DNA from: Podaxis mareebaensis
Taxonomy: Eukaryota > Basidiomycota > Agaricomycetes > Agaricales > Agaricaceae
Reading direction: 5' to 3'
DNA: 64,000 nucleotides
Assembly (NCBI GenBank): GCA_018524725.1
Contig: JAEUWP010000173.1
Coordinates: 1 to 64,000 of the forward strand
Shown here: piece by piece, positions 1 to 47,278 of the stretch
How positions within the stretch are numbered: the stretch's first letter is position 1
Layout of the letters: every line of letters begins with the position of its first letter
Translations under genes and position numbers: made by a program
Notes under the pieces: model-generated
What the model was told of the DNA's origin: nothing
What the model saw: only the letters and a program-made list of their open reading frames with translations
Databases searched by the model: none

Positions 1-746
1 CCTAAAAAGGAAGAAATGAACTCTAATAAAGAAGTGAGGCATTTAAGCCCCATGAGGTCATTTGTGTTGGAGATGTCAATCATGGCGATGCCATCACCGA
101 TGGTTTCACAAATGGCTGACCAATCCGTTCCATGGAATGGCTGCGCATTAGCAGGAGGCTGTGCAGCTGGAGAGGGGGAGATGGGAGTGAAAGTTGGGAT
201 AGAAGGGAGGGGGTCGGATGGATGGGATTCGTCCCATGGGCCACCAGGTGTAGGCAGGATAAAGCCATGAGAGGCAGCGAGGGCTTGAGCTGGTGTCAAA
301 ACCCTGTGGGATGAAGGTGCAATTTCTGGAGACATTTCAATACCATTGCGGACCGGTGCGATGGATGGATGGATAGATTTGGGGGTCAAAAGGCCTTGAG
401 ACTCTTCATCTGGATTGTTGTCCCTGTTTTCTTCAGCTGAGGAAACAGAGGCAGTGTCGTTGTTTTCTCTGAATTTCATACTCTTCTCCAAATGGTTAGA
501 GAGAGATTGATCAGTGGAGTAGGAGCATTTGGCTCCAATAGAGGGAGAGGGTGAAGGGGGCTTTCGAATGAAATCTTCAGATACGCAGAAGTCATTGAAA
601 AGAGGGACAGAGGCCTCTCTCGGGAGTGTTGGGTTGGGTGCTACGCTGGTGCTAGAATGGTGGCAGCGAACAATGCCAGAGCGAATGCTGCTAGTGGCAT
701 TCTTGACACCTCCAAAGAAGCCACTAGTCTCTTTGGAGTCTTTCAT
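1..746 (-). CDS. Unidentified Pro/Ser-rich protein, C-terminus beyond the window
   Basis: On the minus strand a frame opens with ATG at 746 and stays open for 248 codons to the window edge, so the C-terminus is missing. The product is hydrophilic and rich in Ser, Pro, Thr and Asn, with a Pro-rich middle and, near the edge, a better-ordered stretch reading GTDWSAICETIGDGIAMID. I recognise no domain, signal peptide or membrane segment. It is divergent to the ORF at 832-1632 with only about 85 bases between, and both lie just outside a retrotransposon remnant. It could be a native gene or part of another repeat family. The long open frame in a compositionally normal stretch is the only evidence that it is coding. 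Confidence 0.45.
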   Translation of the reverse strand, partial: MKDSKETSGFFGGVKNATSSIRSGIVRCHHSSTSVAPNPTLPREASVPLFNDFCVSEDFIRKPPSPSPSIGAKCSYSTDQSLSNHLEKSMKFRENNDTASVSSAEENRDNNPDEESQGLLTPKSIHPSIAPVRNGIEMSPEIAPSSHRVLTPAQALAASHGFILPTPGGPWDESHPSDPLPSIPTFTPISPSPAAQPPANAQPFHGTDWSAICETIGDGIAMIDISNTNDLMGLKCLTSLLEFISSFL

Positions 747-831
747 AACAAAATAGAACTGGTTTGTGTATTCCTTGAACTACAAATAACTGTTCCACTG
801 AATTGATAGTGGTAGTTACTGAGAAAGGAAG

Positions 832-1632
832 GTGCACAATATTATTTATCACGTGTTAGTCCACGAGCTTGGACTTCCCAACACCTCTCATTCCACCACT
901 CAAGATACGGGTATACCAGCTGAAGACTCAACCCGCTATTGCAATGAAGCTTTCACCAACTGTCGCCTTCCTGGCCACGCATCCCTATTCTCCAAAGACT
1001 GGCCAACACCTGGACCACTCTTCTATGAGACCAACCATATGATGACAGAAATACTACACATTGCCTGGGAGAATGCTCCCTTCACTCATGTCTTCGATCC
1101 CGACGGATTATATGTCCAGATGATCCACAACAACTTCAACTCTGCCTGGGCCCATGGTTGGAAGATGATTCCTTACGCCGGAGAACCCATTGTATTCCTC
1201 CACCCCTACATGATGTACCCGCCTGAGGTCGTCCTGCATATTATCAAATACAAAGTCACCCACAGATTCTACTTTCGAGAAGTAGAAGTCTACCATGTTG
1301 ATCCTAACTCTGATGAGCCTCTGGCCATTCCTCCCTGTTGTACTCAGCTTCTGCCCCTCCGCAGCATTGACTCCAACATTCCAGGTATCGATGAGTCAAA
1401 CCCAGAAGAACCCATCAGTGATCCTCCTCCATATCCACTGCCATATGTCACCGGTGATGTATCGTCATCATCGTCATCATCCCCGCACCACAGCCTCATC
1501 TTCCTCCATGAAGATTCCCCTGACTTGTTGCCTTCAACAGGCAACTTCCCCATTCCTAGTTCCGCCTCATCTCCCGACTCTTACTCTTCCAACTCTTCTA
1601 ATGGACATCTCCATCCTGATATGGACTTGTAA
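832..1632 (+). pseudogene. Unidentified ORF without a proper start codon
   Basis: An open frame of 267 codons ends at TAA 1630-1632. It is bounded upstream by an in-frame TGA at 820-822 and has no ATG before codon 70 (ATGATG near 1038), so it is either an exon of a spliced gene or a 5'-truncated remnant. The first 170 residues look like a folded domain rich in aromatic residues and His (for example HAWGWK-type and FYFREVEVYHVDP stretches). The rest is a Ser/Pro-rich tail with a run of seven serines. No family is recognised. It has no CpG-decay stops and none of the hairpin tiling seen in the neighbouring retroelement, so it is probably not part of that element. Confidence 0.35.
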
Positions 1633-2186
1633 TATAACTTGTAATAGGTTCCTTTCTATCTTGCTACAGACGCTTCGCCTTGTATTCCTGTATCTCGCTT
1701 GAACTTTGTCTTGAACAGTTTCCTTACTTAGTTAGTTTCCTTTCTCGTCTAGTTTCTATTCTTGTCTTGTTCTATTCTCGTCTCACTCCACTCTGTAGTT
1801 ATGCTTCTATTGACTCTCAGACTCATAGCTCTACTTCATCATAATTACTAGATTTGGACCTTAGAAGTAAAGCTTAAAGAGCTGCTCGTGTACTGGAAGT
1901 GCAAGCTTCCTATATTCTCAAATCTCAAGTTATTGTTCACCTTTAACTTCTGATTGATGTTAGCTCACGATCAGTGTGGTAGTAAATGCTCTATTGGTCA
2001 TACTCTCAACTTATAGACGTTCGACCTCCTGAGTGTACTTAACTGGACACTTGCCTTGCCACCTTCTTATCATGATCCTTCTTGCTAGATCCTAGCGCCT
2101 CTGTGAACCATCTAGTAAGATAGCCGCCCCCTAGCAAAGCTTAGGCAACCGGTGATAAGGACCAACCTAACAGATTCATCAGACTG
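1633..2186. other. Non-coding flank of the retrotransposon
   Basis: T-rich non-coding sequence with no long frame. No copy of the LTR found at 10916-11179 is visible here, so the element starting at about 2187 has lost its 5' LTR and the first part of gag. Confidence 0.5.
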
Positions 2187-2192
2187 ACATCA

Positions 2193-2818
2193 ATGCATGA
2201 GGCTCACAAAAGCCTCAAAGGGGTCAGGTATAATCCCAAAGAAGGGATTCAACACTATTACAATGCCATCTTGGGTTACTTGCAAGACATGGCAATCCAC
2301 CCCGATGATTATTCTCTCATTGAGACCTTCCTGGAAGGTCTCCCACAAAACCATGAGACACTTCCTCATGTTCAACAGAGGACTATCTCCTGAGATGAAT
2401 CAACTTGAGGACTTCATAGCACATGCAGCTGATTATGAGAATCAGATGCAAAGCAGTGCCTTCTTCAAAAGGGTTCTGAAACCCTCCCAATCACACAAAC
2501 CATCAGCAGGCTTCTCAAAGAAACCTGCTGCAGCAGAACCAAGAATGAGGACTGCATAGGTCCCTCATTGCATATCCACAGGATGGGATTGCATCCCTGC
2601 TCATGAGCTAAGGCAATCCTCGAATGCCTTTCCACCAAAATGACCGTCAAGACCTCCACCTCAACAACACAAACCCAAGGCTTAATTCAAACCACAGGTA
2701 CAGAGCAAGGTACCTGTTAAGCAGAACCAAGGGAACAAGGCCATAGAGAAAGGGCCTTGTTACAAATGTGGAAAACATGGTCACTGGGCACAAAAATGCC
2801 CAGAGAAGGGGAAATGAT
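2193..2818 (+). pseudogene. gag: Retrotransposon gag remnant with CCHC zinc knuckle
   Basis: The frame beginning at 2193 resembles the C-terminal half of the fungal Ty3/gypsy Gag core (YNAILGYLQDMAIHPDDY, then ETFLEGLP). It shifts to the next frame near 2350, where the conserved continuation GLSPEMNQLEDFI follows. A perfect nucleocapsid CCHC knuckle (Cys-x2-Cys-x4-His-x4-Cys, CYKCGKHGHWAQKC) is encoded at 2758-2799. Gag would form the virus-like particle, and the knuckle would bind element RNA. The capsid N-terminal part is missing and I see no start codon that could restore it. Confidence 0.85.
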
Positions 2819-2853
2819 GCAGCTATGTATGAGCCACACACACAGTCATTCCA

Positions 2854-3640
2854 GTGAACAATGAAGAAGTGCTTCAACAAGAAGTTGAAGAAATTGAACA
2901 GGACTCGACCTCAGATGACAACACTGAGGTCCAAGAAGAACCAGAGTCTAGTTCATCAAATGGAGATGGACTAGTACAAGTCAAAGTCATTGAATCAGAC
3001 TATGGATCTGACATTGATGACAAATACGATTTCACTGCCATGATTGGTGATGCAGAAGATGTCAACAACAAAGATTGTGATGACTTCAATGTCATTGACA
3101 CTCTCACTGTTGAGCCCAGCGAGAAACCAGACCATGAAGTGAGGGTACACCACATTACCCTCCATAAAGAGAAGGATAAGATCCTTTGGCCCCAAGCCTC
3201 CCTCAGTGAGAAACAATGTCTCACCACTCTTGTCAGCATCAATGGTATTGACGCTTGGACACTGGGACTCCAGTAGTATGACTACTGGCATCACCCCCAC
3301 ATTTGCACAAGTGGCTGGCATCAGGGTCAATGAACTATTAGACCCTCACACACTGCAACTGGGGACAGTGGGCAGTTGATCCACTGTCAAGTATGGAGTG
3401 ACAGTAAATGTCACCATTGGAAACATACATACCTGTACATATGTAGATGTAGCAAACTTCAATTGCTACAACATGATAATTGGTATGCCATTCATGCATA
3501 TGAACAACATCATCCTCAACTTCATCAAGAATGAAGTCAGAATTGGAAGCGAAACCATAGAAGTAGCAAACTTCACTGGCGAATCAGATACTCACCTGTG
3601 CCACCACCATGCAACCAACAAAAACAAGTCAAGTTGACTT
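2854..3640 (+). pseudogene. Retrotransposon aspartic protease remnant
   Basis: An acidic linker (140 codons from 2854) leads into INGIDAWTL, then the frame shifts and continues as WDSSSMTTGITPTFAQ. This aligns with the retropepsin active site D-S/T-G-S of fungal Ty3/gypsy elements. The catalytic Asp is kept (codon 3266-3268), but the following Gly is Ser. TCC GGT to TCC AGT is exactly what deamination of a CpG on the other strand would produce. Downstream, NMIIGMPFMHMNN matches the second conserved protease region (I-L/I-G-x-x-F/W). An in-frame TGA lies in this stretch and another ends it. Normally the enzyme cleaves the Gag-Pol polyprotein; this copy cannot. Confidence 0.75.
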
Positions 3641-3875
3641 GTGAAGGATGTTTGATGGGACAATGTCCATTGAACATCCATAGAAGAAGTTTGAGATGAC
3701 AAACAAAGTTCCAGAGGGGAAACATTACCCCACAATAGCTATCACCTCCTAGAAAAGGTTGAGAGTTCCAGGAACTCTCGAAGGGGGGACATGGATCAAG
3801 AAGAACACAAGGTCTCCTCCAAGAGACACAAACTGAAGGAGAAAGCACCTCCTTCACCAATTCAAGAGGGACAAA

Positions 3876-6800
3876 ATGCCCCTCAGGGACCACAAAAAAA
3901 CGAGATACAAGTCTCATTTGATAGACAGACCAGCTCAGAACCCAATGTTCGAGTGGTATTACAACCCCCAAATGCCTGCAGAATGGAATGCCATGGTCTG
4001 CAGCATATGGGAAATGTGTCATCCTGGGGACAAACTACCAACCTCAACTGGGTTCACACAACCCAACCTCAACAACGTAGTCAAAACCCAGGAGTTTACC
4101 AGGGTACATTACCCTGATAAAATGGTATGAGATCAACTCCACAGTATGATCATCACTCGTCTTCCAGTGGAAGACAATTCAGAAACACAAATACAAAATG
4201 CTCATATCAATGCTGAAAAGAGGAATCACCACCCTGAGTGACAAGGTCAGTATTCCAAGAAAGACATACTGACTCTGCACCAGCAGTGGTTCAGCAAATT
4301 CAAGGACATCATGCAAGGTCCTCCCAATGAATTACCACCATTTCGTGAAGTAAATCACAAAATAAACCTCATTGATGAGAATAAGAAGTACAATTACTTC
4401 ACTCCTTGATGCCCTCAATCTCTATGTGGGGAGTTTCACCAGAAACTCAACTGTTATGTGAATGCAAGATGGTGGGAGCCATGACATGTCTCCCAAGCAG
4501 CACCATTACTGTGCATCCCAAAGAAAGATGGTTGACTACAAACCATCATAGATGCACGACAACAAAACAAAAACACCATCAAGGACACCACACCCTTGCC
4601 AGACCAAGACATCATTTGAGAAGATGTTGCTCAAGTGTGATATCAATCCAAAATCGATCTCGCTGACACCTATGAACAAGTCTGAATATGTCTGGAAGAC
4701 ATAGACAAAACAGGATTTGCTACAATCACTGGCATGTATGTCAGCAACATAATGCAGCAGGGGGATTGCAATGCCCCTGCAACCTTTCAGTGGTTAATGA
4801 CTGCTATATTTCACGATGTCATAGGTATATGTGTACATGTATACCTTGATGACATCTTCATATTCTCTGACTCAATAGATGAACATGAAGATCATCTACA
4901 ACTTGTGTTTGAGTGACTGCACGAACACAAGTTATATGTCAAACAATCCAAATGCAATCTGTACACAGATCACATCGACTGCCTTGGTCATATTATTGAT
5001 GACCAAGGGATACACCCAGACAAAGACAAACTGACTCATATTCAGGGGTGGCACACTCCCAGAAACTATACTGATGTCCAATGATTTGTTGGACTCATCA
5101 ACTACCTGGCAAACTTTTTGCCAGATGTATCTGCATACACCAGGCCACTGCTCGCAATCACCCAGAATGGAACCCTGTTCCATTGGAGACCCCTTCACCA
5201 GCATTGCTTCAACATGGTGAAGAGAATATGCGAGAAGACCCCTATTGTCAAACCGATAGACCCCAGAACTGGGGAACCCATATGGATCATCTGTGACACC
5301 TCTAAGACAGGTGTCAGAGCTATGTACGGACAAGGACCCACCTGGGCAGACTGCTGCCCAGCAGGATTCATGTCCAAGAAGTTCACCCCAGCACAGCAGA
5401 ACTATGCCATGCATGAACTCAAGACACTAGTGATTTTAGAAGCACTAATGAAGTGGGAGGACAAGCTCATTGGCTACCAGATCCATGTTATCATGGATCA
5501 CAAGGTGTTGGAGTTTTTCAAAACTCAAATGTGATTGTCTAGCTGACAATGACAATGGATGGACTATCTATTGCACTTTAACTTTGACATTACATATGTC
5601 AAAGGAGAATGAAATAAAGTAGCAGACTGCTTGTCTTGCTACTTTGAAAGCAATACTCTAGGAGAGGAACACTCCCCTGGAGAATACATCCAAGTCGATC
5701 ACAGAATCGATCCTCACTGTGAGGACCTACCTCTACAATGAGCCAAGGAGATTGAGCACCTCCTTGACAGAGTCAAGGCAATGGTCAAGTGACCATTGCA
5801 CCGAAGCACCCACCTGTGCAAACAGCAGGAAGAACAAGAGATTGAAGCTTGTGAGCTTCAAGAAGCAGCCCAGAGACAGGTTGCTCAACAAGAGCCACAA
5901 GAATGAACCATTGAGTCTCCAACACTGGGAGACACATTAACAGGTAATGTCACCACTGAAGCTCCAATGGAGCTCCCAATCAATGTGACAAAAACAATCA
6001 TATCGGGATACACATCCAACCCTGTATTTTCAGTGGTGCTTGAAGCACCTGAGAAATACAGTGGTTTTACCATCAATGATAATAGTATTATTTGAAGAAC
6101 TACCCCCCAAGGTTGGGAGGTGGTATGCATTCCCAACAGCTGATCTCTAATCACAGAGCTTTTGAATAAAGCTCATGAGATTGTTGGTCACTTCAGCAAC
6201 CAATGGACAGCAGAGTACCTCCAAAGGTGGTACTGGTGGCCAAAAATAGCCAAAGACACACACATGTTCTGCAGAACATGCAAAATATGTCAACACTCAA
6301 AGGTCTCGAATATGAAACCTTCCAGGACACTGCACTCACTACCAGTCCCAACCAAACCTTGGGATTCCATTGGAATGGACTTCATTGGTCCATTCCCTGA
6401 ATCCAAAGGCTTTGACTACCTCTGGGTCATCATTTGTAGAATGATGAGTATGGTACACCTGATTCCAGTACATATGCAGATGAAAGCATCTGAGTTATCT
6501 TGGATCTACCTACAAGAGATTGTGAGGCTACATGGCCTCCCTAGTCTGATCATAAGCGATTGAGATTCAAAGTTCACCTCCATTTGGTGGGTAGAACTCC
6601 ATAAAATTTTAGGAGCTAAGCTCCTAATGTCCACATCATTCCACCCACAAATGGACGGGCAGACCAAATGCATGAACTGGAATATCAGACAGATATTCTG
6701 AGCAACAGTCAGCCATGACCAGAAAAACTGGGTAGACAAGGTACCCATGACTGAGTTTGCTATAAACTCAAGTATATCAGCCTCTACTGGGTATGCACTG

Positions 6801-7439
6801 TTCAAATTGAACAGTGGATACATGCCCAGTATGATCCAAGAAATACAGGGCAACCTAACACCCCCTAAGGGTGTTAGACTATTTGCTGAAGCTGCCCTGA
6901 TGAACTTGGTGTCTGCTCATGATGCCATCATAGAAGCACAGGTTTTCCAAACCTGCCAGGCAAACAAAAGGAGAGGACCTGAACCTGACATTAAAGCCAG
7001 AGACCTGGTGTTCCTCTCCACCAAAAATCTAAACCTACCAAAAGGCAGAGCTCAGAAGCTCTGCCCAAAGTTCATCAGACCCTTTAAGGTCTTGGAAGCC
7101 AAACCTGAGACATCTAACTACCATCTCGAGCTACCACCAGCCCTGCAGGAACATCAAATACACCCAACGTTCCACATATCATTGCTTCAGCCCTATAATG
7201 CATTGGACAATGCACTATTCCCAAGCCAAAACAAACCAGAACCCTATGACTTTGGTGTAGACAATGAACATGAATGGTTCATCAATGAAATCATTGGTCA
7301 TCATTTCACAAATGATGGCAAGGCAGAGTTCCAAGTCCACTGGAGTCTAAGTGATACAACCTGGGAGCCATATAGCCATTGTAAAGACCTAGCAGCTCTA
7401 GATCAGTATCTAGAGCTGAAAGGTGCTAAGTCAATCTGA
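3876..7439 (+). pseudogene. pol: Retrotransposon pol remnant: RT, RNase H, integrase, chromodomain
   Basis: One reading frame runs from 3876 to 7439 with no frameshift but 21 internal stops, all TGA. Reverse transcriptase is recognised by KYNYFTP, WWEP, QAAPLLCIPKKDG, PLPDQD, DLADTYEQV and the catalytic VYLDDIF (codons 4839-4859). RNase H follows, with DTSKTGVRAMYGQGP, AMHELKTLVILEAL and FDITYVKGE. Integrase has the H-H-C-C zinc-binding region (HEIVGHF, then CRTCKICQHSK) and the first two catalytic acidic residues (MDFIGPFPES and SD*DSKFTS, where * is TGA). The C-terminus is a chromodomain (EWFINEIIGHHF, FQVHW, TTWEPYSH), which in chromoviruses directs insertion to chromatin marks. Several TGA codons sit where the family has Arg; other Arg positions now read Trp, Cys, His or Gln, all reachable by CpG to TpG/CpA change. 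Confidence 0.95.
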
Positions 7440-7589
7440 CAGCTACCACAGATCAGTCAATGACTATCTGTGGAAAAATTGATGGTGTCCAAAATTGGAC
7501 ACTCGACCCTGAGGATTGCATTCCCAATGTTTGGGAACACAGAGATGGGACAAATAACTTTAATCCATCTTCACCTCAGCACCACCACC

Positions 7590-10500
7590 ATGGATGTGCA
7601 ACAACTGCAAAACACACAAAACCAACAACACACATCGGTGCAGGGTGAAGCAAATCACCCTGCACAACCTGGAGGCCCTCCAACAGGCCTCAAAGGGGGG
7701 AGGGCAATGGATATATTGCCCGACCCAATCCCAGCTCTTCACCACAATGGGCAGCAACTCACTGCCCAACAAGCACTACTATCTAACCTTGTGGGCTTGA
7801 TACCACAAGGCCCAAACCAACTGGACCCATTGCATTTACATGTGATGCCTCTGCCACCTCCACAGTTCACACAGGGTTTCCCATACCCTGTGTTCTACCC
7901 TCCTCCCTCCCCACACATGTATGGTTTTCCACAACTGTACAGACATTACCCTCCACCACTGGTGCCATAGCCACTATACCAGCAATCCACCCCAGTGCCA
8001 CTCATCCAACAACCATTCATGCCATTCCAACAGACAGTGCCTGCACCACAACAATCACAGTCGCTAACCCAAGATCAGCCAGCTACAACAACATGACCAA
8101 CAATGCTGGCCCCAATGACATCATTGGCAACTGATGCACAGAGGAATGATGTTCCTCTGTCCCAACCCCCCTCAGCCACCTCAGCCAAAGGAAGGAGCAA
8201 GGCACAAAAACCCACACTACCCTTGTCCTCTAAGGACAAGGGTAAACAGAACCCACCTGAACCAGCACCAGCTGTGCTTTCCTCAAAAGCTCAAGGAAAG
8301 CAAAGGGCTGTAGATGTAGAGCTCAAGGACAATCAATATGTCCAAGAGCTGATGAACTGACTCAATGAGGCAGGTCTACCCATAGACCTGATATCTGAGC
8401 TGAGCACCAGCTCAAAACATACTGGCTGCAATGCCATTATCGAGGAGCTTTTAACAAAGCTCCACAGTTTACAAGACTGTTTTGTCATGCTTGAAGGACA
8501 AAACAGCCTATTGCAGAGGCAGGTCTTGAACCTGCAATGACAGTTGAACAAGAAGTCAGACCAAGAAGAAGAACGGCCTGCAAAATGGCATGCGACATCT
8601 CAATCGATGACATCATCTCAACAGGGGGTGCCAAGCACTCCACAAGACCCCACCACCCCAACACCACATACAGGCAATGAGGTAAAACCCTTACCTCACC
8701 AATGCCACCAACCCTCACTACCACTAGCTGCGTCGTCATCACACCAGCCACCACCACCTCTGGCTGACATCACCCTACCCTATATTGAGGAAGTACCATC
8801 TGGGGACATTGATGTCCCCATGCACAAACCCTCGATGAGCACAACCTCAAGGTCAATGAAACTGACCTTGAGCAGTATTGTACCATCAGAGTCCCTCTTT
8901 GAGGGACTCTCCTTTGGCCAACCTATCCTGGTATGCCCACCAGGAAATCTCCTACCAGAACCTGTAATCTGCCTCCACCATGAGTTCATCCAATACAGTC
9001 CAGATGACCCAGAGGAACAGCTTTTGGGACTGGAATACTCAAGTGACAAAGACAATGATTCATCAAGGAATCATTGTAAGAAAAACAAGAAAAACCAAAA
9101 GGCACAATCATCTGGAGACAATGATTGCACCATTGTCTCTGACCTCATCAGATGAGGAGGCAGGATTCCTGACCTCTGGGGACTTTCAGGTACTGAGCTG
9201 GGTATCAGAGAATGCAACAACTCCATGCAAGGAATGTTGTCACATGATGCATACTATTGCCAGCAAATAAACACAGTATTCACAGGCACAAATGCCCAAC
9301 TTGTCACCAATGCCGAACTCCAAGGCAGGGAGTTTGTGCACAGCAACAAGAAGGGCACAGTGCACCACATCACAGGTTGGGGTCTACCAATGACCCTGAG
9401 ACAAGTCATATGACTATGGCAGTTTATGAATAACTGCCATGTCAACATCCACAGCAGATTTGAGGTGTACTTCCTACTCCAAGAACTGCACAACATTGCA
9501 ACCTCAACCATGCCAGAGCATCATGATGATGCTATGGACTTCATATTGAACCTCGAGGGGTATGACCCCAACTTCCTGGTGCCTGGGATGCAACAGGAAT
9601 ATATGACTAGGCTCAAGCCCATTCCACATGCTGTGCAAGATCACAGCACTAGGAACATTCTCAAACAGAATGAGGGTAAAGGCCTCCCGATGCCAACTGG
9701 CCCTCAGCTTTTCAATATTGACCTCTTAGGTCAATATCTCCTCATCCACAGAAATCCTAATACCTGCAATGCCTACAATGGCATTGCATTCGAACGGCAA
9801 AGACTTGTCCACTGCCATTGTGTCTTCAGTTACAGCTTGGGTTGAGCATTGAGCCCATCTGACAAGAGCGCCTTGCAGAAATTCATGAGGCTATTTGCCA
9901 TCCTCATTGTGACTCCAAACTTATACTGGGAATTCATTGCCAGATATAACAGTCACATTCCACAAGAATGTGCCTACTCCTCACAAAATGGGCCTGTATT
10001 TTCAATACGGCCCCTAGACATGACCTCCTATGCCACACATAACTTGAGCCTCGACAACGTGGCTCATGCCCTTATTTGTAATGGTATACCCACTTCTTGG
10101 GTAGACCATGCCTATCTCTTCAGGTTGTGGTGGTTGAACCACACCTATCATGGTGACCAACTTCACCATGATCTGTATGACAAATACGACAACTGCTGGG
10201 TGGAATACCTCAACTGGTACCATGAACCACTGGCAATTCTGGAGTGGGATGGGTGGAGACATCCCACTGATGACGACCTCAATTGGTTCTTGTACTTTGA
10301 GTACAAGAACATCCAACAAGAGAAAGGGGAGCATTTTGTTCCCCACAGATGGTTACCAGCAGGGGCATCACCCTTCTTCTGGCTCCTACAGAACCATGAC
10401 TACCCTCAGTGCCTGCTGGAGCCACCCCCTTCACAACTGTGGTTGACTCACCCTCTCATGCTAACTTTCAATGAGTCAGCACCCATGGTTTCCTACAAAA

Positions 10501-10799
10501 CAGCTACTGAAACAGATGCCCAAATGATAGAGGCCAACACCTCTGTATCTGCCCCCAACATTGCTGAACATCACCTGTCAGACACAACCATGACCGAGGC
10601 CACCACCTCTGCCCTTGCATCTGACCACCCACCCATCACTGTTCTGGCTGAGGCCAACACCTCCACCTCCTCCTCTCAAGACATCATCAGTGAATCCTCA
10701 TCAATCACCTCTTCCCACTCACATTTGTCTTTGTCACCCTTGTGATTGAGTCGACTCAAACCCTACTTCCCCTACAAGGTGATCCATTACCTCATTTAA
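7590..10799 (+). pseudogene. Second long ORF of the retrotransposon, function unknown
   Basis: After pol, a new ATG in a strong context (ACCACCATGG, 7590-7592) opens a frame that can be followed for about 1,069 codons to TAA 10797-10799. It is broken by one TAG (7968-7970) and seven TGA codons (8094, 8358, 8538, 9153, 9411, 9843, 10743). The N-terminal half is Pro/Gln/Ser-rich and low in complexity. From about 9,200 the product is denser and richer in aromatic residues (VDHAYLFRLWWLNHTYHGD, WDGWRHPTDDDLNWFLYFEY), as in a folded domain, and a Ser/Thr-rich tail follows. No RT, integrase, envelope signal peptide or membrane helix is visible. The same TGA bias, hairpin tiling and low CpG as in pol show that it belongs to the element. 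It resembles nothing I can name. Confidence 0.7.
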
Positions 10800-10915
10800 A
10801 CCTCACTGTCAACTGGGCACTATATGTGTCCCCATCTTCTGCTTGTCACCACAAGTAACCTCATTACTTGTGCATTGGAACTCTTGACCATACTTTATGG
10901 TCTCAACAGGGGGTG

Positions 10916-11179
10916 TGTAAGGGTTAAGCCCTTACTATTGTGGCCATCTCCTTTCTTGTTAATCAATATTGTATTAATTAATTGTTTAATTCCCACTGTT
11001 TACTTAACCCTGATGGATTACTTAATCCATCAGGAAAATATCCTTTATATTTTTGTTGTCAGCTGTCATCATGACAGCTGACCTTATACCTACACTATGT
11101 ACATCCCAATACATCAGGTTTATTGTATGTCAGTGTGAACTTAAGGTCTAAGCTCTAAGTAAGCCTCAATAGGCTTACA
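10916..11179 (+). repeat. 3' long terminal repeat with adjacent polypurine tract
   Basis: A purine run (AACAGGGGG) ending at 10913 is followed within two bases by TGTAAG, and 264 bases later the unit closes with CTTACA, the matching short inverted terminus (TG...CA) of an LTR. Inside are several perfect palindromic hairpins: GTAAGGG/CCCTTAC at the start, CTGATGGATTA/TAATCCATCAG near 11020, an 11 bp stem at 11058-11068/11072-11082, and GTAAGCCT/AGGCTTAC at 11159-11166/11171-11178. No second LTR copy lies upstream of gag. The boundaries are inferred from the termini and the position of the polypurine tract. Confidence 0.7.
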
Positions 11180-12044
11180 GAATCAGTGTGATAAATCTGA
11201 AGTGCTTAGAAAGGATGTCCAGCACTTTGTTTCCTGCCTGCACCCTGTCACTGTCCTGGCAGATTTCAGGGAGTTTAAGGGGACAGCAGGGCTCACTGAG
11301 CTGAGACTGCTCAGAGATGGACTGTGATATGCTTGCAGTGGTTGACTCAGTCTCCAATTGAGGTGCCACATTGTTTTGGTCACCATTGCTCTCCAATCAG
11401 GGCACCACATAGTTTTGTTCACCACTGCTATCCACAGAATCTTCATCTGGCATGTCCTCCTGGTCTTTGCCCCACTTGTGACAGCAATCCCATTCATTGA
11501 AGATTGAATTGTACTGCTTTTGAGATGGACTGAATTCCATCAATGTCTCCTCCTGTTCATCCTTCTGCACACACTCCCATACAAATTTAGTGGGGTCATT
11601 AATGCCCAAGCAAGTGCATATTGACAAATGTCCATCATCTGGAGTTGGTGTATCAACCCAACCTTTTTGATTTCTCCCTCCCTGATTCTCTGCAGCCCAA
11701 TGGACAGGAACCCACTTCCCCTTGATAAGATTGGCAGTTGTGAAGTTGTGCTTCACAAGCCCCTGTACCCAAGGATCCCATGGCTCCACTTCTGGTATAA
11801 AGTCATCACTAGGCTTCAGAGGACCATACAAAACCATTTTGTTGGACTTGGGTTCTTTGGCATGTACAGCCAGAATGGCAGGGCTCAGCTTAGTGGGGCT
11901 TATAGGAATGTGGCTGGCAAGTGAAGGCATTGAATTGGGTATTGGAACTATGCCAGGCTGAGGAAATGAATATGGGCCATGGGAGGACTGGGGATCAGTG
12001 TCTTGTAACAGTGCTTCAGACATTCGATTGATGGTGGCTTTCAA
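11175..12044 (-). pseudogene. Unidentified minus-strand ORF interrupted by one TGA
   Basis: A minus-strand frame runs from ATG 12044 for 215 codons to TGA 11397-11399 and continues in the same frame for another 73 codons to about 11175, touching the LTR end. A single stop in an otherwise open 290-codon frame, again TGA, fits CGA to TGA decay. The product has a Pro/Ser-rich start and a more ordered middle (EPWDPWVQGLVKHNFTTANL, KFVWECVQKDEQEETLMEF), then an acidic Ser-rich tail. I do not recognise it; its CpG poverty suggests another repeat-derived gene. A further open stretch (12041-12238) may belong to an upstream exon. Confidence 0.4.
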
Positions 12045-15000
12045 GGATCTGAGGAGGCTTTTGACCTGATTGATGTCTTAGAAAACATGAGTATAACCTT
12101 CAGACATGAGGTCAAACAGTAAATTAATATACAGGCCTCAACATTTGAAACTGGCATATTAGCTTGAACACCATGGGGAGGGTTCAATTGTATGTTGGGC
12201 TTCTGAGTTTCAAGGTGATTGGGTGGATCTAGGGTCAAAAACAGTTAGGTTTGAAAACACCCAATCACAAGTCAACTGGTCTTACATGAAGAACACATGG
12301 CAGAGCCTATTTCCTGTGACCAATTTGGTGGAACTTGCATCAGGAAAGTGGTAGTGTGGTTGGCAGTTGTGGGATGGACATGATAATGCAATAGCTGGTT
12401 CCCTGGGTGAGATTGCTGCAACAATGGAAGTGGCTTGTTTTGGTGGTGGCCCTGGGGACTAGAAGGGTTCGAGACAGAAGTTGGATTAAGAGAGTTTGGT
12501 TGAGAAGTTTGGTGAAAATAACTAAGACAGTGATTGATGAAGCCCTTTCATAACATGAGTTCACCTTGTTTCAGCATCAGCAGTGGAAGCTTATGAGCAC
12601 CATGATTGTAGAGTCTCTGGCATAAGAAGTGGTATATGACATGGCTGTTGAAAACACAACAGCAGATGATAAGTTTCCTTTTTGATGGAAATTTCAAATT
12701 CACAGTAACTAACAAACTCTGTAGAATTATAACTGATATAAGGTATCTCCTGAAGTATCAAAACCCCCAATGGGATTAAGAAATCCTTCTAGTCATTCCA
12801 GGTGTCGATGTTGGCAGGAGGGAGGAACCACCAAGGGTCTAAGGGTTACTTCCCTTTAAGGAGAACATTGGGGATATCTGGATGGACCCACATGCAACAT
12901 GTGAGTTTTCATCTGTTTGTATAATGGTAACCCTGAACATGTCTGCTAGCATATATATGGAGATTACTCATTGCCTTACTAGACCTGCCTGGCCCTTTTT
13001 CAACTGACATGTACCTGCCCTGACTGTGAGTGCTTTCTACTTGCTCTGACTGTGTTTTTGGTTATATCGTAGTTCAGGAATCCAATATGATCAACCCAAG
13101 GAATCTACATTTGTCCAAGTTACTAGATGCAGAGGTGAGTGATTCAAGGATAATCATTCTGTAATTGGAGGTTGATACCACTAAATAGAGGCTGACACCA
13201 CTGACACCTCCCTCTTCACCTCAACTGCTGAGCCATTCCCCTGAGGATCCCATCCTCAAGATCTTGAGAGACCTGCCATTTTTTGATAGTACCATTGACA
13301 TCCCTGCGACTTTTCCACCTATGATCATCATCTACATTGAGGTCATCATTGAATTTTTCTATTAAGGTCTTTTTGGTTTTAGAATACAGTCCCAAATAAT
13401 ATACCATACATTCTACTTCACTGTGAAAACCACAAGTCACACCAGATCTAAGACCAGGACAATGAAAGAGAGGCAAGATGAACACTGTCAAGAATGATTG
13501 CTGGCCAGGTCCTCCCTTGCGTTCAAGTTGTCCAAAGCATTGGAAGTGCCTGCTGTGCCTTCTCCAGGGTAGTGGTGAAAAGCCACATGTGCTGCAGTCA
13601 TGTCTACATGTATAATTCCTGGAGAGAGGCTCAATGACGACTACACTTCATATCTCAGACATACTACCCAGCCTAGGGCCCACATCTCATCCTACTGCCT
13701 AAGCTCATCATTTGTGATTTCCATATGAAGAGCAGCCATGTGATAACCAGCTGGCCACATTGCTGATCTGTTGATTGGGGTCATCTGGATCAGTCCCTTT
13801 TTGGGAGGAGATATGCCCTTTATGGCTATGTTGTACAAGCACAGAATATGTCATGCTACTGTGTGGGGATTAATGTTGATAATGGTTACAAACAGTTGGA
13901 GGGAAGAACTACAGATAATCATGCTGTGTTCTCATTCAGTTTATTATAGCTGGGGAATCTTCCAGGAGTATTTTCAAGGTCACAACTAAAGATTGTGTGG
14001 CACAGGACATGCTCAATTGTCATTGAAATACAAGTTATTCATCATGTGGGATGGTGTATTGGGTGCTAATAACCTGAAATCAGGACTTAGGGAGGATGAA
14101 TCAGTCCCTAGTGTTATGGAATTATAATTTAATTCTATGATTCTTGATATATGGCTATATAGTCACATCCTAGATATTCTGACCTTAGGCTATTGCATAT
14201 TGCATCAGACATGAGCTACTAAGGCAACTTGGATTCACTGTGGATGGTGACAATGCAACACCTGTCACATTAAGCTCTACATGCCCTATAATTAGGCACT
14301 GACATAGTGATGGTGAAGCACACTGCTCCTCCTCCAACTCTCTACTTCATATTCATTTCAATTGCCAACATGGAAAATGAAAGACAGAATGTAATCAGCA
14401 TATATTTGGGTAGAAACATCAAGAAAAAAACTCTTAGATGTCATTCAAATATACAGCTGATGGTGGAGGAGGGATTGAGGGCCATATGGCCAGACATGGT
14501 GAACCACATGAAGGAACACAGGTTGGAGGGGCTGGTATCTGTGCTACTAATGTGCATATATTATTTCTAGTTTTACATTCATTTGAAACCTAGGAGTAGC
14601 ACAGTTGGACATACCTCCAAAGGCAAACCGGCATCTCATCCACAACATGCCACCATGCATCTATTTGATTCCAAAAACCATGAGTTTTGCACTCTCCACA
14701 CTCTGCCAAAACTGGGAGATGTGGCTGTCCTGTTGTATGGAATCAGTGGGCATTGGGACAATAAGGACATTACAAAGAGATTGGGATTTGAGGTACTGGT
14801 TCCTTGGTGAGTAACTCAAGCAAAAGTGTCATATTTTTTAATTGACATTCAATTTGCCTTAGAAATGTAATAATAACTGATACAAATCAAGACATACTTA
14901 TAATGAAATACCAGTTACTACTGCTGAGTGCTGCAAAAGCCTAGTATTTTCTAATTAATATTCGTTTTCATTTGGATACATGCACAGAATTGTCAGCACA

Positions 15001-16350
15001 GATGTTGCATGGTCACTAATGAAACCTCCAGTGAGACCAGGCACAAGAGGTTCATTGAATGATGGACCAATATTGCTTTGAAGATTGAGATCTCCGAAGA
15101 AGCAGTCACTTGTGTGATTCCAACCAACACCAACACTGACTTGGGCTTCTCAATGGACGTGGATCTGGTGACCCAGACACTGAATTGATATTGTCACAAG
15201 AATGCATGATAGTCTTCGCTAAGAGTCCAGGTGCACAACATCCAGGCCTGCTGGGTACCATGGTCTTACAGTGCCAGTACCACTGGGTACTGCAATGGTA
15301 CTGCATCCAGTACCACTGAGTACCACACTGATACCACATCCAGTACCACTGAGTACTGCAGGTGTGCTGCATCCAGTACCACTGGGTACCACAGGTGTAC
15401 CACATCCAGTACTGCTGGGTACCACAGGTGTGCCACATCCAGTACCACTTGATGTAAAACCATCAGTAGTAATGAGAGTAGCTATATTACCAAAAAATTT
15501 CATTCTAAAAATGCCTTGTGTCTTCGTATTTATTGTAGATTGCTACTCACTAACATTGTGACCTAATACACATAGTTACCTAGCTCTTGCTACCACCAAC
15601 TGCATCCAGTACCACTACCACACCCTGTACAGTACCACTACTTGACATATGTGGTAGGCTTGGTACCACTGCTGCGTCCTGCAGTAGGGTGTGGGTGCAG
15701 GTGTGGGAAATTCACAATGCCCAGGGTCCAACTGTATAAGAAATTGAGCACGACACTGCTGTAATTATCCAAGTTATCTTTTATGGAGCCAAGCCTCAAC
15801 AGCTGGTGCTGCCTCCACCAATGAAAGATTATGTCTGGCCTAATCTTGAGCTCTGTTGGTGTGCCCAGGAAAATCATTTGGTCATTCAGGATGTAGTGTG
15901 GTAGTGACAATTTTCGAGACAATGGCATCAGAACTGAATAGGAACCAACCAGATAATGGTGTGTTCAACTGTTATCAGTTACTTCACCCTGAGTGCTGGA
16001 CTGTCAGTTGCTGTTAGCTGTGGCCATCCTGATGTATTTGGGTGTATTGTAAGTATAGACACAGACATAATAATCTAATAATCTAAAAGTGGAAATGGCT
16101 CAGTGTGATGTGATATGTGATGCCATGTCATATCTGAGACACCAGGCCTGCCTGTAATGCATCCCGATATCAGTAGTATTTGATATGCTCACTGCCAGAA
16201 TGTTCATAAGTAAAGGATATAGAGTGGAATTACATTTGACCATGCCAGCAAGCCCAACCCACACCCTCGATTGGATCATTACAAACACACCGGAGTGAAT
16301 ACTGCACATTGAGCCCAACCCACAGTGAGTATGCAACTAGTATACCAATT
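12045..16350. other. CpG-poor repeat debris without a supportable gene
   Basis: This stretch has very few CG dinucleotides, like the retroelement beside it, and only short frames (under about 100 codons) in all directions. It holds the 33 bp minisatellite described separately. Unlike the neighbouring retroelement it does not show dense hairpins. It is probably old transposon sequence decayed by CpG methylation, but no family can be named. At about 16,350-16,370 the composition returns abruptly to normal CpG content. Confidence 0.5.
15241..15450. repeat. Minisatellite, 33 bp period, about six copies
   Basis: The core CCAGTACCACTG recurs at 15274, 15307, 15340, 15373, 15406 (variant) and 15439, exactly 33 bases apart, with a diverged first copy at 15242. 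Because 33 is a multiple of three, most frames stay open and give 11-residue repeats such as HPVPLGTTGVP; this explains the overlapping ORFs here and is not evidence for a protein. A solitary related unit lies at about 15600-15640. Confidence 0.9.
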
Positions 16351-41070: not shown

Positions 41071-42675
41071 TCATACGACCCCCCAGAATAGCGGTAGTAT
41101 ATCGTCCCTCGTAACCCCCGTTTCATCTCCGTCGTTCGAATCTATGAAGATCACCTTCTCGAAACGCTTCCCCAATCGCTCAGATTGCTCTGTAGGAAAA
41201 TGATCCTCAACAACCTCTCTCAGAGGGTGTCCGTGGAGAAGCCGGATATTTGCTGTCTCGATCAAGGCTCCGACGTCCCTTGTTTCATAGTACCCCGTCC
41301 GGCCCGCGTCTGAGTAGATATGGAGGTTCTCGAGCCGATGAGCATACTTGAACGTGGGTTCTGGGGCATCCTCGTTGCGTTTCCGAAGAAGATCCCAGAG
41401 TCGGTGCAATTTGGTGCATAGCTCCTCAGCAACCCTGAGCGTGTGAAGCGAAGGAAGCGCCTCAAAAATTTGTTCGTCAAAGGATGCATCATAGTATGTT
41501 CCTGGGGCATACACAAGCTCCTGCACATCCTTCAGAAAATCGGTGTCGTTGGATTGGAGGACGAAATCTGGCCGATCCCATATGAAGTTTGCATAAAAGG
41601 TTGAGCCAACACGTCTAACCATAGATGCTTGGTTTGCCGTCGTCTCGAACGACGTCAACACAAGTTTTCTGACTGTTGGTAATGGCCTTCCTTCTCCCGT
41701 TTGGAAGAAATATTCAGAAGGGGCGAGGTATTGATACCTCTCATAGAAGCAACATTTGGTGGTGGGTGGAATAATGATGTGAGAGAACAGCAATCTGAGG
41801 TGATCCCCAGACCAATGCCATGGCTCTCTATCACCGACCTCGATATATCGAAGGGCTGGTAGCACCACCGGAAGGGCTGCTTCGTAGATGTCTTTCCCCT
41901 CCTCCAAACTATAATGTGTAGGGCCTGCACGGACGAGGACCAGCTCCTGTAATGTTTCGGAATTTGCCTCAAGGACTTGGAGGAATGTGATGAGATTGGG
42001 TCTGGCATCTGTTGGTTGATCATAAAGGTGGAATCGAACCAAGTTTCGAAAGCGGTTATAGGGCCAGGCGGAGACGTTGGATAGATAGACATTCTTGAGA
42101 CGAGGCATATCGTCATTGAAAATGCGAGGTAGGACGCTCACAGCATCCTCCGTATCCTCAATTTCCACCTCGTTTGAGATGGATTCCAATGTCGGTGCAG
42201 GGCGGTCCATCAAATCCCAAAAGCAAGAATTCCGAGCCCAAGCGGACTGCAGGTGAAGTTCCTGAAGTCGAGGGGTGTCGAAGGTGATTTCAAGAAGGGT
42301 ATTATACATGCTTGCTCCCGTTTCATCTGGCGATTCTCCAGGAAGCGTGCCGGTGAAGTAGAGTTTGAATGGGATGGTTTTTGAGCGGCGCAGGTACTCG
42401 AGTGCCCTTTCGACAGAATTGTCATTAAGGTGTATTTGGTTCCATAAGTTTGGGGTGGACAGCGCAATTTCCCTCCAACGGCGCGAGACCTGGATGGCAT
42501 AGACCCATTCATGAAGGTCGGTAGGCAGTGGGAATGGCATGTGGCTAGTAATGTCAGGCTGAAGGAAGGAGAAGATGGTGGCGAGAATCGGAGGCAGGCG
42601 GTTGAGCGACGAGGTGTTAAGATTACACAAGGATTTTGAATGGGCGATCGCCTCTTTCGCCAGGGCTTCCATCAT
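41071..42675 (-). CDS. F-box protein
   Basis: A single exon of 534 residues. After a short N-terminus the F-box is recognisable (LNRLPPILATIFSFLQ, then VSRRWREIALSTPNLWNQI, about residues 23-82). The remainder is Leu-rich with irregular repeats, consistent with a degenerate leucine-rich-repeat substrate-binding region. F-box proteins recruit substrates to SCF ubiquitin ligases through Skp1. Large families of such proteins are typical of Agaricomycetes, and the target of this one is unknown. Two ATG codons in a row occur at the start (42675, 42672). No introns are needed. The gene at 45659-47278 has a similar layout but little visible identity. Confidence 0.88.
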   Translation of the reverse strand: MMEALAKEAIAHSKSLCNLNTSSLNRLPPILATIFSFLQPDITSHMPFPLPTDLHEWVYAIQVSRRWREIALSTPNLWNQIHLNDNSVERALEYLRRSKTIPFKLYFTGTLPGESPDETGASMYNTLLEITFDTPRLQELHLQSAWARNSCFWDLMDRPAPTLESISNEVEIEDTEDAVSVLPRIFNDDMPRLKNVYLSNVSAWPYNRFRNLVRFHLYDQPTDARPNLITFLQVLEANSETLQELVLVRAGPTHYSLEEGKDIYEAALPVVLPALRYIEVGDREPWHWSGDHLRLLFSHIIIPPTTKCCFYERYQYLAPSEYFFQTGEGRPLPTVRKLVLTSFETTANQASMVRRVGSTFYANFIWDRPDFVLQSNDTDFLKDVQELVYAPGTYYDASFDEQIFEALPSLHTLRVAEELCTKLHRLWDLLRKRNEDAPEPTFKYAHRLENLHIYSDAGRTGYYETRDVGALIETANIRLLHGHPLREVVEDHFPTEQSERLGKRFEKVIFIDSNDGDETGVTRDDILPLFWGVV

Positions 42676-45658: not shown

Positions 45659-47278
45659 ATGTCAGACCTTAACTATTGTCACCATCAATCAATGACTACA
45701 GAACGTACACTCTGTCCATGTTGTCACCAGCCCCTGCCCAATCCTGATATAACCCTCGCAACTCCTGATCAAAAATACCAATCTCTTGTCGAGATCGACG
45801 ATGAGGTTAAGCGCCTGGATGTCCTCATCAGAAGACTCTGCGAGAAGCGGATTGCCCTCCTTCAACGACTGAATGCAGTCCAGTCTCCTATATACGCCCT
45901 TCCACCAGAAGCATTGTCCCTTGTATTTCAACATTCATGCCCGCCTCCTGACTTTGATCGGAGTCACAAATTGGCGGTGACCAACGGTGAATCCCAAGAC
46001 GGGGATGTTTCTCAAGACTCCGGAGGAAACCAGTATCCACAATTCCTTCTCGGCTCGGTGTCGTCTAATTGGAGACAAGTTGTATATTCCACCCCACGAC
46101 TTTGGACGGCCATAGACCTTCGAACGACTTCACTGAACATCGACAGAAGCGCTGCCATCTTATTCACCTTCCTCACAAATTCCGGTCAACTTTCCATTGG
46201 TCTTGGGCTCCGCTTTCTCACGGTTGGCGTAACACAGCCCGGGTACCTCTTATCCCCTACACTTGATCCATTGTTGATCGAGAATGCACATAAAATTCGA
46301 ACCCTTCATCTCACCAATGCACCAAAGCCCTGGTTTGATTACATATCTCATTTGCCCCAGCTTTCCAGGTTTTCCTTCATCAGTGGTTCTCTCCAGGAGC
46401 CACTGACGGTCAATGCGGCTTGTCCTCGCCTCACTTTGCATTATATTCGGCATCGACCACAGTTACGCTGGTCCACCGCCACGGTGTTGCACCTCAAAGG
46501 TGTACCCGCCGATGTCTGTTTGGAACTGCTCATGATGTGTACGAACCTGAAAGAGTTCCGGAATCAAGATGCCACGAATCCACAAGGGGATGTACTCACG
46601 AAACTTCCTAAACGCTTCTTCGTACTCCCACATATGGAGCTCTTTGAATGGTCTTTGGACAGTGGCCGTCCGATAGATGCAGCCATGCTTCGGTCCGCTG
46701 AGATGCCTGCTCTGCGGAAACTGATATGGATTGAGCAAGGACCGAGGTCTTTTGGGCGTTTGTATGTGGGGAAGGATTTTCTGAATCGTTTGCCCCTGAC
46801 GGTCTCAACACTGGAAATCCATAATCTTGCTTATTTTGGTGACGGTGGAGATTCTTTTCTGGATTACTTACACAGCAACCTCGCCCTCGAGCACGTTCGG
46901 CTTCATTATTGCTCCCATCCTTTCCTGGGGGATCTCCTCCGAAGCCTCATGCCAAGTTCGACGGACGACGAAGATCATAACATGAGGGAAATGGACTTTC
47001 CTAAGCTCAGGTTAATCACCGTGATTGGGCCCTCCCCTTTCGACTGGGATGAATTTGACGGAATCATGATATTGCGGATGTTGGAGCGTAGGTTCTTCAA
47101 TGGCCTCGCTGTTTTTGATTTGGAGAAGCCGTTTCGGCTGGAATTTATTTCATTCACGGTGACATGGGAGTCCGAGGTAAAACAGAGGTTGAGGGATATG
47201 GTTGATCGTGGGTTGAAGTTAGAGATTGTCATCGATTCTGAACCAGTGCATTGGTTGTATAACTACGTAGATTTCTAA
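45659..47278 (+). CDS. F-box protein with N-terminal coiled coil
   Basis: A single exon of 539 residues. It begins with a Cys/His cluster (CPCCHQPLP), then a charged helix (YQSLVEIDDEVKRLDVLIRR), then the F-box (IYALPPEALSLVFQHS ... VSSNWRQVVYSTPRLWTAIDL, about residues 80-155), then a long Leu-rich C-terminal part. This is the standard architecture of the expanded Agaricomycete F-box family, where the helix before the F-box is common. The role is as substrate adaptor in SCF ubiquitin ligase; target unknown. It starts 63 bases after the stop of the dehydrogenase, so the promoter must be very short or overlap that gene's 3' end. A second ATG at 45692 is an alternative start. Confidence 0.88.
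   Translation: MSDLNYCHHQSMTTERTLCPCCHQPLPNPDITLATPDQKYQSLVEIDDEVKRLDVLIRRLCEKRIALLQRLNAVQSPIYALPPEALSLVFQHSCPPPDFDRSHKLAVTNGESQDGDVSQDSGGNQYPQFLLGSVSSNWRQVVYSTPRLWTAIDLRTTSLNIDRSAAILFTFLTNSGQLSIGLGLRFLTVGVTQPGYLLSPTLDPLLIENAHKIRTLHLTNAPKPWFDYISHLPQLSRFSFISGSLQEPLTVNAACPRLTLHYIRHRPQLRWSTATVLHLKGVPADVCLELLMMCTNLKEFRNQDATNPQGDVLTKLPKRFFVLPHMELFEWSLDSGRPIDAAMLRSAEMPALRKLIWIEQGPRSFGRLYVGKDFLNRLPLTVSTLEIHNLAYFGDGGDSFLDYLHSNLALEHVRLHYCSHPFLGDLLRSLMPSSTDDEDHNMREMDFPKLRLITVIGPSPFDWDEFDGIMILRMLERRFFNGLAVFDLEKPFRLEFISFTVTWESEVKQRLRDMVDRGLKLEIVIDSEPVHWLYNYVDF

Follow-up and report, generated by a model that had tools for sequence, protein, structure and literature searches.

We are inclined, if only slightly, to the view that selection has shaped a Ty3/Gypsy lineage of Podaxis mareebaensis (families A and B) from LTR to LTR, favouring numerous small local hairpins that form when the element is single-stranded. 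The lineage was studied through one copy in a 64,000-nucleotide stretch of contig JAEUWP010000173.1 (the window) and through its relatives elsewhere in the genome. Hairpins, defined unless otherwise stated as perfect stems of at least 7 bp closing a loop of 3-13 nt, occur about once per 100 bases over the full length of the element, and the pattern looks to have been kept by selection and not made by chance.

Hairpin density in the window

Perfect stems were counted between positions 2187 and 11179 and in 40 dinucleotide shuffles of the same region. This revealed 135 stems of at least 6 bp, 92 of at least 7 bp, 55 of at least 8 bp, 30 of at least 9 bp, 13 of at least 10 bp, 6 of at least 11 bp and 1 of at least 12 bp, compared with shuffle means of 25.0, 6.35, 1.82, 0.50, 0.12, 0 and 0, respectively. 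The highest count of stems of at least 7 bp in any shuffle was 13. All nine hairpins named in the initial annotation (9/9) were exact in their coordinates, and its tallies of more than 60 hairpins listed by eye and of at least 9 stems of at least 10 bp proved conservative. Its claim that the pattern stops at the LTR end was also borne out, and equal density in host DNA, which it had named as a refuting result, was not observed: the adjoining region 11180-16000, as CpG-poor as the element, carried 7 stems of at least 7 bp against 4.35 expected, and 29 hairpins were found in the 48 kb from 16001 to 64000 (0.60/kb), near chance.

The element and its relatives

Judged from its domains and alignments, the element is a member of a Ty3/Gypsy LTR lineage in an agaric genome; the parts of the window copy are listed in Table 1.

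Table 1. Parts of the retrotransposon copy in the window and two of its hairpins
Feature	Position	Strand	Evidence
Family A Ty3/Gypsy retrotransposon copy, 5'-truncated	2170..11179	+	Aligned to C122, C279, C280, C243, C420
pol RNase H portion, open piece	5085..5534	+	Pfam RT_RNaseH, 2.6e-18
Integrase piece, H2C2 zinc-binding	6144..6563	+	Pfam Integrase_H2C2, 9.3e-14
Integrase C-terminal part, Tf2-type SH3 and chromodomain-like end	6702..7439	+	SH3_Tf2-1, 1e-15
3' ORF region, several open pieces in the window copy	7464..10745	+	Without Pfam family
3' LTR, 264 bp, 5 hairpins of at least 7 bp	10916..11179	+	Matches both C279 LTRs
Longest perfect hairpin (stem 12 bp, loop 3 nt)	8218..8244	.	
LTR hairpin, 11 bp	11058..11082	.	

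RVT_1, RT_RNaseH, Integrase_H2C2 and rve domains were found in the family B copy L033, marking it as Gypsy-type. A Chromo match at the integrase C-terminus scored 20.0 bits in the window and 22.6 bits in L033, both below the Pfam cut-off of 25.1. The 3' ORF has a family B counterpart at 31-38% identity; its structure model was of low confidence (mean pLDDT 39.4) and was not used. The initial annotation had described an element tiled with hairpins from gag to LTR. The tiling was confirmed, and the extent was corrected by alignment to the full copy C279, which starts at about position 2170 and shows that the 5' LTR and about 2.4 kb are absent from the window copy. The C279 LTRs are 263 bp long, are 91% alike, start with TG and end with CA; no matching 5 bp indicating a target duplication were found around this copy. 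The single (3') LTR of the window copy has a hairpin at each end, and its 11-bp hairpin was kept, with a changed loop, in 4/4 other copies reaching that site (C122, C279, C280 and C243).

Further genomic copies, whose examination had been recommended at the outset, were located with the integrase H2C2 piece as query. Families A and B are about 36% apart in DNA, and 29 of the first 30 loci, drawn from both, carried 5.3-11.1 hairpins/kb; two further loci carried 8.8 and 7.6 hairpins/kb. C279 had 112 hairpins in the 11,671 bp between its LTR ends, with 0 in 2.5 kb of one flank and 1 in 2.3 kb of the other, so the signal ends at both edges. In the same genome, all ten Gypsy loci outside this lineage lay at 0.40-1.30/kb (0.8/kb pooled). 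No relatives were found in a scan of viral contigs. Among bacterial and archaeal contigs, four loci in MAG records encode relatives at 31-37% identity with 0.7-2.0 hairpins/kb and are probably fungal contamination. At the protein level, integrase relatives occur in Agaricus bisporus, Armillaria ostoyae, Hypsizygus marmoreus and other species. A search of the open-access literature, with subscription papers outside its scope, returned no description of a comparable hairpin-tiled element, consistent with the earlier statement that none was known.

Hairpins within coding sequence

The initial annotation had set in advance, as a test that could refute it, a comparison with shuffles preserving synonymous coding and dinucleotides. 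In 8 ORF stretches the hairpins were 5-16 times above protein- and dinucleotide-preserving shuffles (8-26 per stretch versus means of 0.9-2.9). By codon register they were distributed 56/51/18, where the null was near equal, and the least-used register was the one with the smallest synonymous freedom. The hairpins are thus written into synonymous positions, with the encoded proteins unaltered. Amino-acid identity between families A and B was 104/146, 93/126 and 109/148 (0.71-0.74) for codons in A stems and 366/515, 374/538 and 343/494 (0.69-0.71) for codons in no stem; codons partly in a stem ('other') gave 0.64-0.67. These 'other' codons and sites with ambiguous stem status ('amb') were left out of the quoted codon and variant comparisons. 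Regular spacing was tested for and not found (CV 0.74-0.89 versus 0.83-0.85 in the null), the spacing being random, and no loop motif was noticed on reading the hairpin list.

Conservation of stems

Hairpins of families A and B shared positions in 10-13 of 44-55 cases, compared with about 0.3 expected, and 32 of 146 hairpin positions were confined to a single copy among the six compared, of which two are partial. At third codon positions, transversion variants were found at 4/233 sites in stems versus 29/416 outside, and transitions at 41/233 versus 127/416; at codon positions 1 and 2, transitions in stems were not depleted. Non-CpG stem changes stood at 0.44 (transitions) and 0.27 (transversions) relative to outside, and the same ratio for long-loop chance hairpins was 0.64-0.70 and 0.40-0.64; ascertainment accounts for some of the conservation seen in stems. 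Double changes were Watson-Crick in 21/37 cases from A to B (versus 5/26 slid) and in only 10/34 from B to A (versus 4/26 slid). Compensation is slow, since family A stems showed only 5 paired non-CpG changes against 57 single ones. Compensatory-looking changes at CpG sites in family A (38 distinct states) proved to be parallel CpG decay and were therefore not counted as evidence. The window copy was dropped as a variant source in the non-CpG change, stem-conservation and one-armed analyses, and the 20-copy counts left out L017, L018, L022, L024, L026, L030 and the family B loci.

Folding and strand

The sense RNA folded with z scores per 150 nt of -2.71, -2.98 and -3.44 in three copies, whereas four control stretches gave -0.30 to +0.31, a comparison with shuffled controls having been proposed in the initial annotation; folding energies in 150-nt windows of the sense strand were 24-26% below shuffles. 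Inner pairs closing loops of less than 3 nt were near chance (43/141), and those closing loops of 3-5 nt were enriched (183/336). A minimum loop of 3 nt marks one strand folding on itself.

A preference for G.U over A.C in sense-strand stems was looked for and not found. In family A, stem changes giving sense A.C numbered 34 versus 61.9 expected and those giving G.U 20 versus 60.1 (difference in depletion, two-sided binomial p 0.078); in family B the counts were 8 versus 12.9 and 12 versus 18.1, respectively. Among single-mismatch stems, C122, C237 and C280 had comparable excesses of G.U and of A.C relative to shuffles, and the CpG-decayed window copy was the sole copy with A.C alone in excess. 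A CpG strand asymmetry in family B singletons (5 G.U-type versus 25 A.C-type) was lost when all states were counted (TG:CA 76:60 in stems, 284:249 outside). In family A, TG:CA was 93:110 in stems and 543:514 outside (p 0.17); a pseudo-replicated 3.4-kb set gave 169:208 versus 924:797 (p 0.002). Because G.U is not tolerated above A.C, genomic RNA is not established as the selected form. The earlier suggestion of selection for a folded genomic RNA is therefore supported as to a folded molecule but not as to the genomic (sense) RNA, from which the G.U mark is absent. That selection acts instead on minus-strand cDNA or antisense RNA is very improbable: in family A, depletion is weaker for sense A.C changes (G.T or G.U when read on the minus strand) than for G.U, but the statistics are weak, and both the family B counts and the similar excesses in the three copies above speak against it.

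Alternative explanations

Chance, base composition or CpG decay can be given virtually no credence. The strong CpG depletion of the window copy and its abundance of the complementary TG and CA would favour such an origin; however, dinucleotide and codon shuffles fell far below the observed counts and the CpG-poor neighbouring DNA lacks the pattern. As the initial annotation had argued, the hairpins are not a by-product of CpG decay, because the CpG-undepleted copies L016, L025 and L033 (CpG observed/expected 0.89-0.98) carry the same density. Unlikely, too, is that selection favoured the hairpins as elements scattered along the genomic RNA that bind Gag or compact the RNA for packaging into particles. 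Dispersed hairpins have been proposed as packaging elements for some small RNA viruses, and here they span the entire transcribed unit of a locally well-folded sense RNA, but that strand has no G.U preference, the loops and spacing show neither noticeable motif nor order, and the other Gypsy families of the genome manage without hairpins.

Fold-back template switching by the reverse transcriptase of the lineage, which would perfect quasi-palindromes and leave the hairpins functionless, is rather improbable. It predicts perfect pairing without G.U preference and requires the same short loops, left arms carried 137 changes at 1015 sites versus 102 at 1011 in right arms (a weak asymmetry), and template switching is reported to create and maintain RNA hairpins (PMC8794818). 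Against it, no differing loop was exactly inverted, either in four comparisons within family A (0 of 245) or in four between A and B (0 of 165), the hairpin sets overlapping; 11 of the 165 were nearer the inverted than the direct form. In the yeast study, however, inversions were seen only with arms longer than 9 bp, longer than most arms here (PMC8604942, excerpt). Under the full filter (CpG over all six copies, window copy excluded, hairpins with at least 2 broken pairs), one-armed cases made up 4 of 21 hairpins with several changes versus 4.9 expected; an excess under a weaker CpG filter (13/33 versus 7.1) was gone. The few paired changes in family A, the third-position constraint in stems and amino-acid identity equal to that outside, as in normal protein conservation, also count against it, and this process, raised in the initial annotation, is unsupported as what maintains the hairpins. 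The yeast template-switch repeats, as excerpted from the same source, are alike in their short perfect arms, small spacers and location in coding DNA, but are marked by arm conversion, spacer inversion and amino-acid changes, whereas here neither exact inversion nor altered protein conservation was found.

Proposed function and significance

Under selection for local hairpins in a single-stranded form, each hairpin would add a small fitness gain, and hairpins would therefore sit wherever the protein permits. We tentatively suggest that the benefit lies in immediate self-folding of the transcripts (possibly sense and antisense alike, and possibly of the cDNA too), which would leave them poorly accessible to small RNAs and to antisense copies made from the numerous other insertions. 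Piwi (Argonaute), RdRP and RNase III (Dicer-like) domains were found in the host genome. More speculatively, the genome of the element may have been recoded synonymously into about 100 fast-folding hairpins working on both strands, shielding sense and antisense from annealing and from small RNAs: a structural counter-defence against RNAi residing in the nucleic acid and not in a suppressor protein.

The element resembles Tf2/chromovirus-type Ty3/Gypsy elements, Ty3 itself among them, in its gag, protease, RT, RNase H, Tf2-type SH3 integrase and LTRs, and differs from them in its extra 3' ORF and in its hairpins, which 10/10 other Gypsy loci of the genome lack. Ty3 genomic RNA has dispersed structured regions, 14 of them well folded in vivo (PMC11381356, excerpt). 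With the genome-scale ordered RNA structure of RNA viruses it shares structure throughout the genome and beyond composition, the fold energy being below shuffles genome-wide in three copies. Unlike that structure, which takes the form of extended folding, the present case concerns an LTR retrotransposon with discrete perfect hairpins and loops below about 15 nt, and it does not favour G.U over A.C as a sense-RNA structure would. For genome-scale structure, a role in hiding the RNA from recognition has been proposed (PMC9784701, excerpt).

If this reading is right, genome-wide ordered structure is not confined to RNA viruses but is found in a cellular retrotransposon as well, and there, as discrete perfect hairpins, it is unusually clean. 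The hairpin-poor Gypsy families of the same genome are built-in controls, which can be compared with the hairpin-rich families by small RNAs, methylation and copy success. The cause of end-to-end RNA structure, whether packaging, shielding or a mutational by-product, would then be testable within one fungus.

Hairpin density in the element and its family

The initial annotation had described the element at 2187-11179 as tiled with short perfect inverted repeats, and all nine hairpins that it named were exact in sequence and position. We counted all maximal perfect stems whose loops measured 3-13 nt, taking stems of at least 7 bp unless stated otherwise. This analysis revealed 92 stems of at least 7 bp and 13 of at least 10 bp in 2187-11179, compared with means of 6.35 and 0.12 in dinucleotide shuffles (n = 40). 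As had also been claimed, the pattern was absent to the right of the element, where the equally CpG-poor stretch 11180-16000 held 7 hairpins versus 4.35 expected; host DNA held 29 in 48 kb. When three copies from families A (that of the window copy) and B (a related family) were pooled, density per kb and loop size was 1.8 at loops of 3-4 nt, 0.53 at 9-10 nt and 0.05-0.08 at 18 nt or more, compared with 0.03-0.07 in host DNA. Density thus falls near the host level from loop 18 up, and the structure is therefore local. The spacing of hairpins along the element was random.

Observed/expected CpG was approximately 0.1 in the repeat-rich part of the window (2001-16000) and 0.7-1.0 in the host part (16001-64000), a contrast fitting methylation-driven decay of repeats. 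Such decay is not the cause of the hairpins, in agreement with the initial annotation, since the copies L016, L025 and L033 (CpG 0.89-0.98) were as dense as decayed ones. Among the first 30 loci of the lineage examined, 29 carried 5.3-11.1 hairpins per kb, the exception being L017, a decayed piece with 2.9; two later family B loci carried 8.8 and 7.6. All ten other Gypsy loci had 0.40-1.30 per kb (pooled, 74 in 95.5 kb). The family A copy C279 contained 112 hairpins inside the element and 0 in 2,467 bp and 1 in 2,281 bp of its flanks. The hairpin trait is a property of the lineage.

Architecture of the lineage

A search of the 37-Mb genome with the window integrase piece (best 150 candidates listed) identified at least 23 further family A copies with 84-91% amino acid identity over the whole query, together with partial ones, at least 17 family B copies (64-71%) and many other Gypsy elements (25-40%). 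DNA divergence was approximately 36% between A and B and 7-15% for most copies inside one family. C279 measured 11,671 bp from LTR to LTR, and each LTR was 263 bp; the window copy has no 5' LTR and is short of approximately 2.4 kb. L033, a family B copy, encodes gag, protease, RT-RNase H and an integrase with a Tf2-type SH3 domain, with stops between, followed by a long 3' ORF. Named relatives of the family B integrase were found in Agaricus, Armillaria, Hypsizygus, Phanerochaete and others (best 120 of 3,475). Judging by the one outside relative listed for the host protein at 45659-47275, the host is probably an agaric close to Macrolepiota.

Families A and B have both retained the long 3' ORF that follows pol, with 31-38% identity between them. 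One protein search returned a single relative, P0121 (48% identical). Pfam gave no family for P0121 or the L035 product, and only a sub-threshold Prominin match for the L033 product. Parts of window 1-2169 match DNA just outside the C279 5' LTR, which suggests that a further repeat borders the element in both locations. The stem TAGGACC...GGTCCTA near position 2432 of L016 is common to L013, L014, L015, L016 and family B and is missing from other A copies, a distribution that hints at recombination between the families.

Coordinates of the 3' ORF and of other features in the window
Feature	Sequence	Position	Strand	Remark
Long 3' ORF	window	7464-10745
Long 3' ORF	L035	2901-5144	-
Long 3' ORF	L033	7038-9377
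Match to C279 (L036) 5' flank	window	675-833		79%
Match to C279 (L036) 5' flank	window	2087-2173		94%
Short tandem repeat	window	15228-15449		period about 33 bases
F-box-like gene	window	41071-42675
Host protein	window	45659-47275		single outside relative listed, from Macrolepiota, 48%
NACHT/NPHP3-type P-loop ATPase gene	window	55139-56497	-	close to the next
NACHT/NPHP3-type P-loop ATPase gene	window	60360-61616	-

Hairpins in synonymous sites and their maintenance

Shuffles preserving protein and dinucleotides were run on eight ORF stretches (100 each; two overlap by approximately 200 bases in different frames). The excess persisted, with 18, 12, 16, 18, 26, 9, 18 and 8 hairpins observed against means of 1.95, 2.08, 1.44, 2.90, 2.46, 0.85, 1.14 and 1.52, respectively. 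Hairpins avoided the codon register that pairs third positions exclusively with one another, which held 18; the two freer registers held 56 and 51, respectively, against a null that was near equal among the registers. Amino acid identity between A and B was 0.71-0.74 in A-stem codons and 0.69-0.71 in no-stem codons (three comparisons). The hairpins are written in synonymous sites.

The hairpins are also kept. In family A stems, non-CpG single-copy transitions occurred at 0.44 of the outside level and transversions at 0.27. Chance long-loop hairpins, a control carrying the same ascertainment, were depleted too (0.64-0.70 and 0.40-0.64), and a mirror-repeat control showed no reduction. Much of the depletion is therefore due to ascertainment, which leaves an effect of approximately 1.6- to 2-fold. 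At third codon positions in 20 copies, transversion variants affected 4/233 stem sites versus 29/416 outside, and transitions 41/233 versus 127/416. No transition depletion was seen in these copies at positions 1 (23/224 versus 40/421) and 2 (21/238 versus 27/470). CpG changes were not fewer in stems than outside, the outcome expected if copies decay once inserted. The 3' region evolves fast (70-93% identity per 600 columns), and many stems persist there amid altered loops and flanks. A six-copy alignment (two copies partial) placed hairpins at 146 positions, 20 present in all six and 32 in one copy only. Between the families, 11/48, 13/45, 12/55 and 10/44 hairpins had at least three exact pairs in common, versus approximately 0.3 by shifting. 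Where both partners had changed, Watson-Crick pairing was retained in 21/37 cases from A to B (slid control, 5/26) and 10/34 from B to A (4/26).

The initial annotation had offered template switching by reverse transcriptase, perfecting quasi-palindromes, as a possible cause; as the means of upkeep it was not supported, with none of 245 and none of 165 differing loops exactly inverted. A first comparison of arms, filtered less strictly, had pointed towards fold-back switching (one-armed change sets 13/33 versus 7.1), and left arms were slightly more changed than right arms in six A copies (137 changes at 1,015 sites versus 102 at 1,011, or 0.135 versus 0.101 per site). However, one-armed sets numbered 4/21 versus 4.9 expected, with changes falling on both arms, paired non-CpG changes in family A were 5 versus 57 single, and protein conservation was equal inside and outside stems. 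Template switching may have helped seed the hairpins; as far as tested, it does not explain their upkeep.

Single-strand folding and possible function

The folding unit is one strand. Pairs closing 1- or 2-base loops were near chance (23/73 and 20/68; higher in the window copy alone, 12/27 and 8/21), whereas those closing 3-, 4- and 5-base loops were enriched (55/119, 47/87 and 81/130). Folding against shuffles bore out the excess of structure in three copies, with z of -2.7 to -3.4 (sense) and -2.5 to -2.7 (antisense) per 150 nt; four control stretches had no fold energy far below shuffles. When hairpins were kept and the rest shuffled, the sense-antisense energy difference was similar or larger. 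If selection acted on the sense RNA, G.U should be better tolerated than A.C. No such preference was found among non-CpG changes in A stems (G.U 20 versus 60.1 expected, A.C 34 versus 61.9; binomial P = 0.078, two-sided) or in B stems (G.U or A.C type, 8 versus 12.9 and 12 versus 18.1). Among single-mismatch stems, G.U and A.C exceeded shuffles to a similar degree in the copies C122, C237 and C280, and A.C alone did so clearly in the decayed window copy. These results are compatible with either a requirement on both strands or no dependence on strand.

Searches of an open-access library turned up no account of an element like this one, although that is weak evidence that none has been described. 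The host genome encodes Argonaute (Piwi), RdRP, RNase III and cytosine methylase domains, with RNase III domains in a Dicer-like paired arrangement at two loci. Evasion of small-RNA silencing is therefore a possible function, and the main functional alternative is packaging by Gag. Evasion of small RNAs, which the hairpins may serve, would suit the strand-neutral, randomly spaced, end-to-end pattern.
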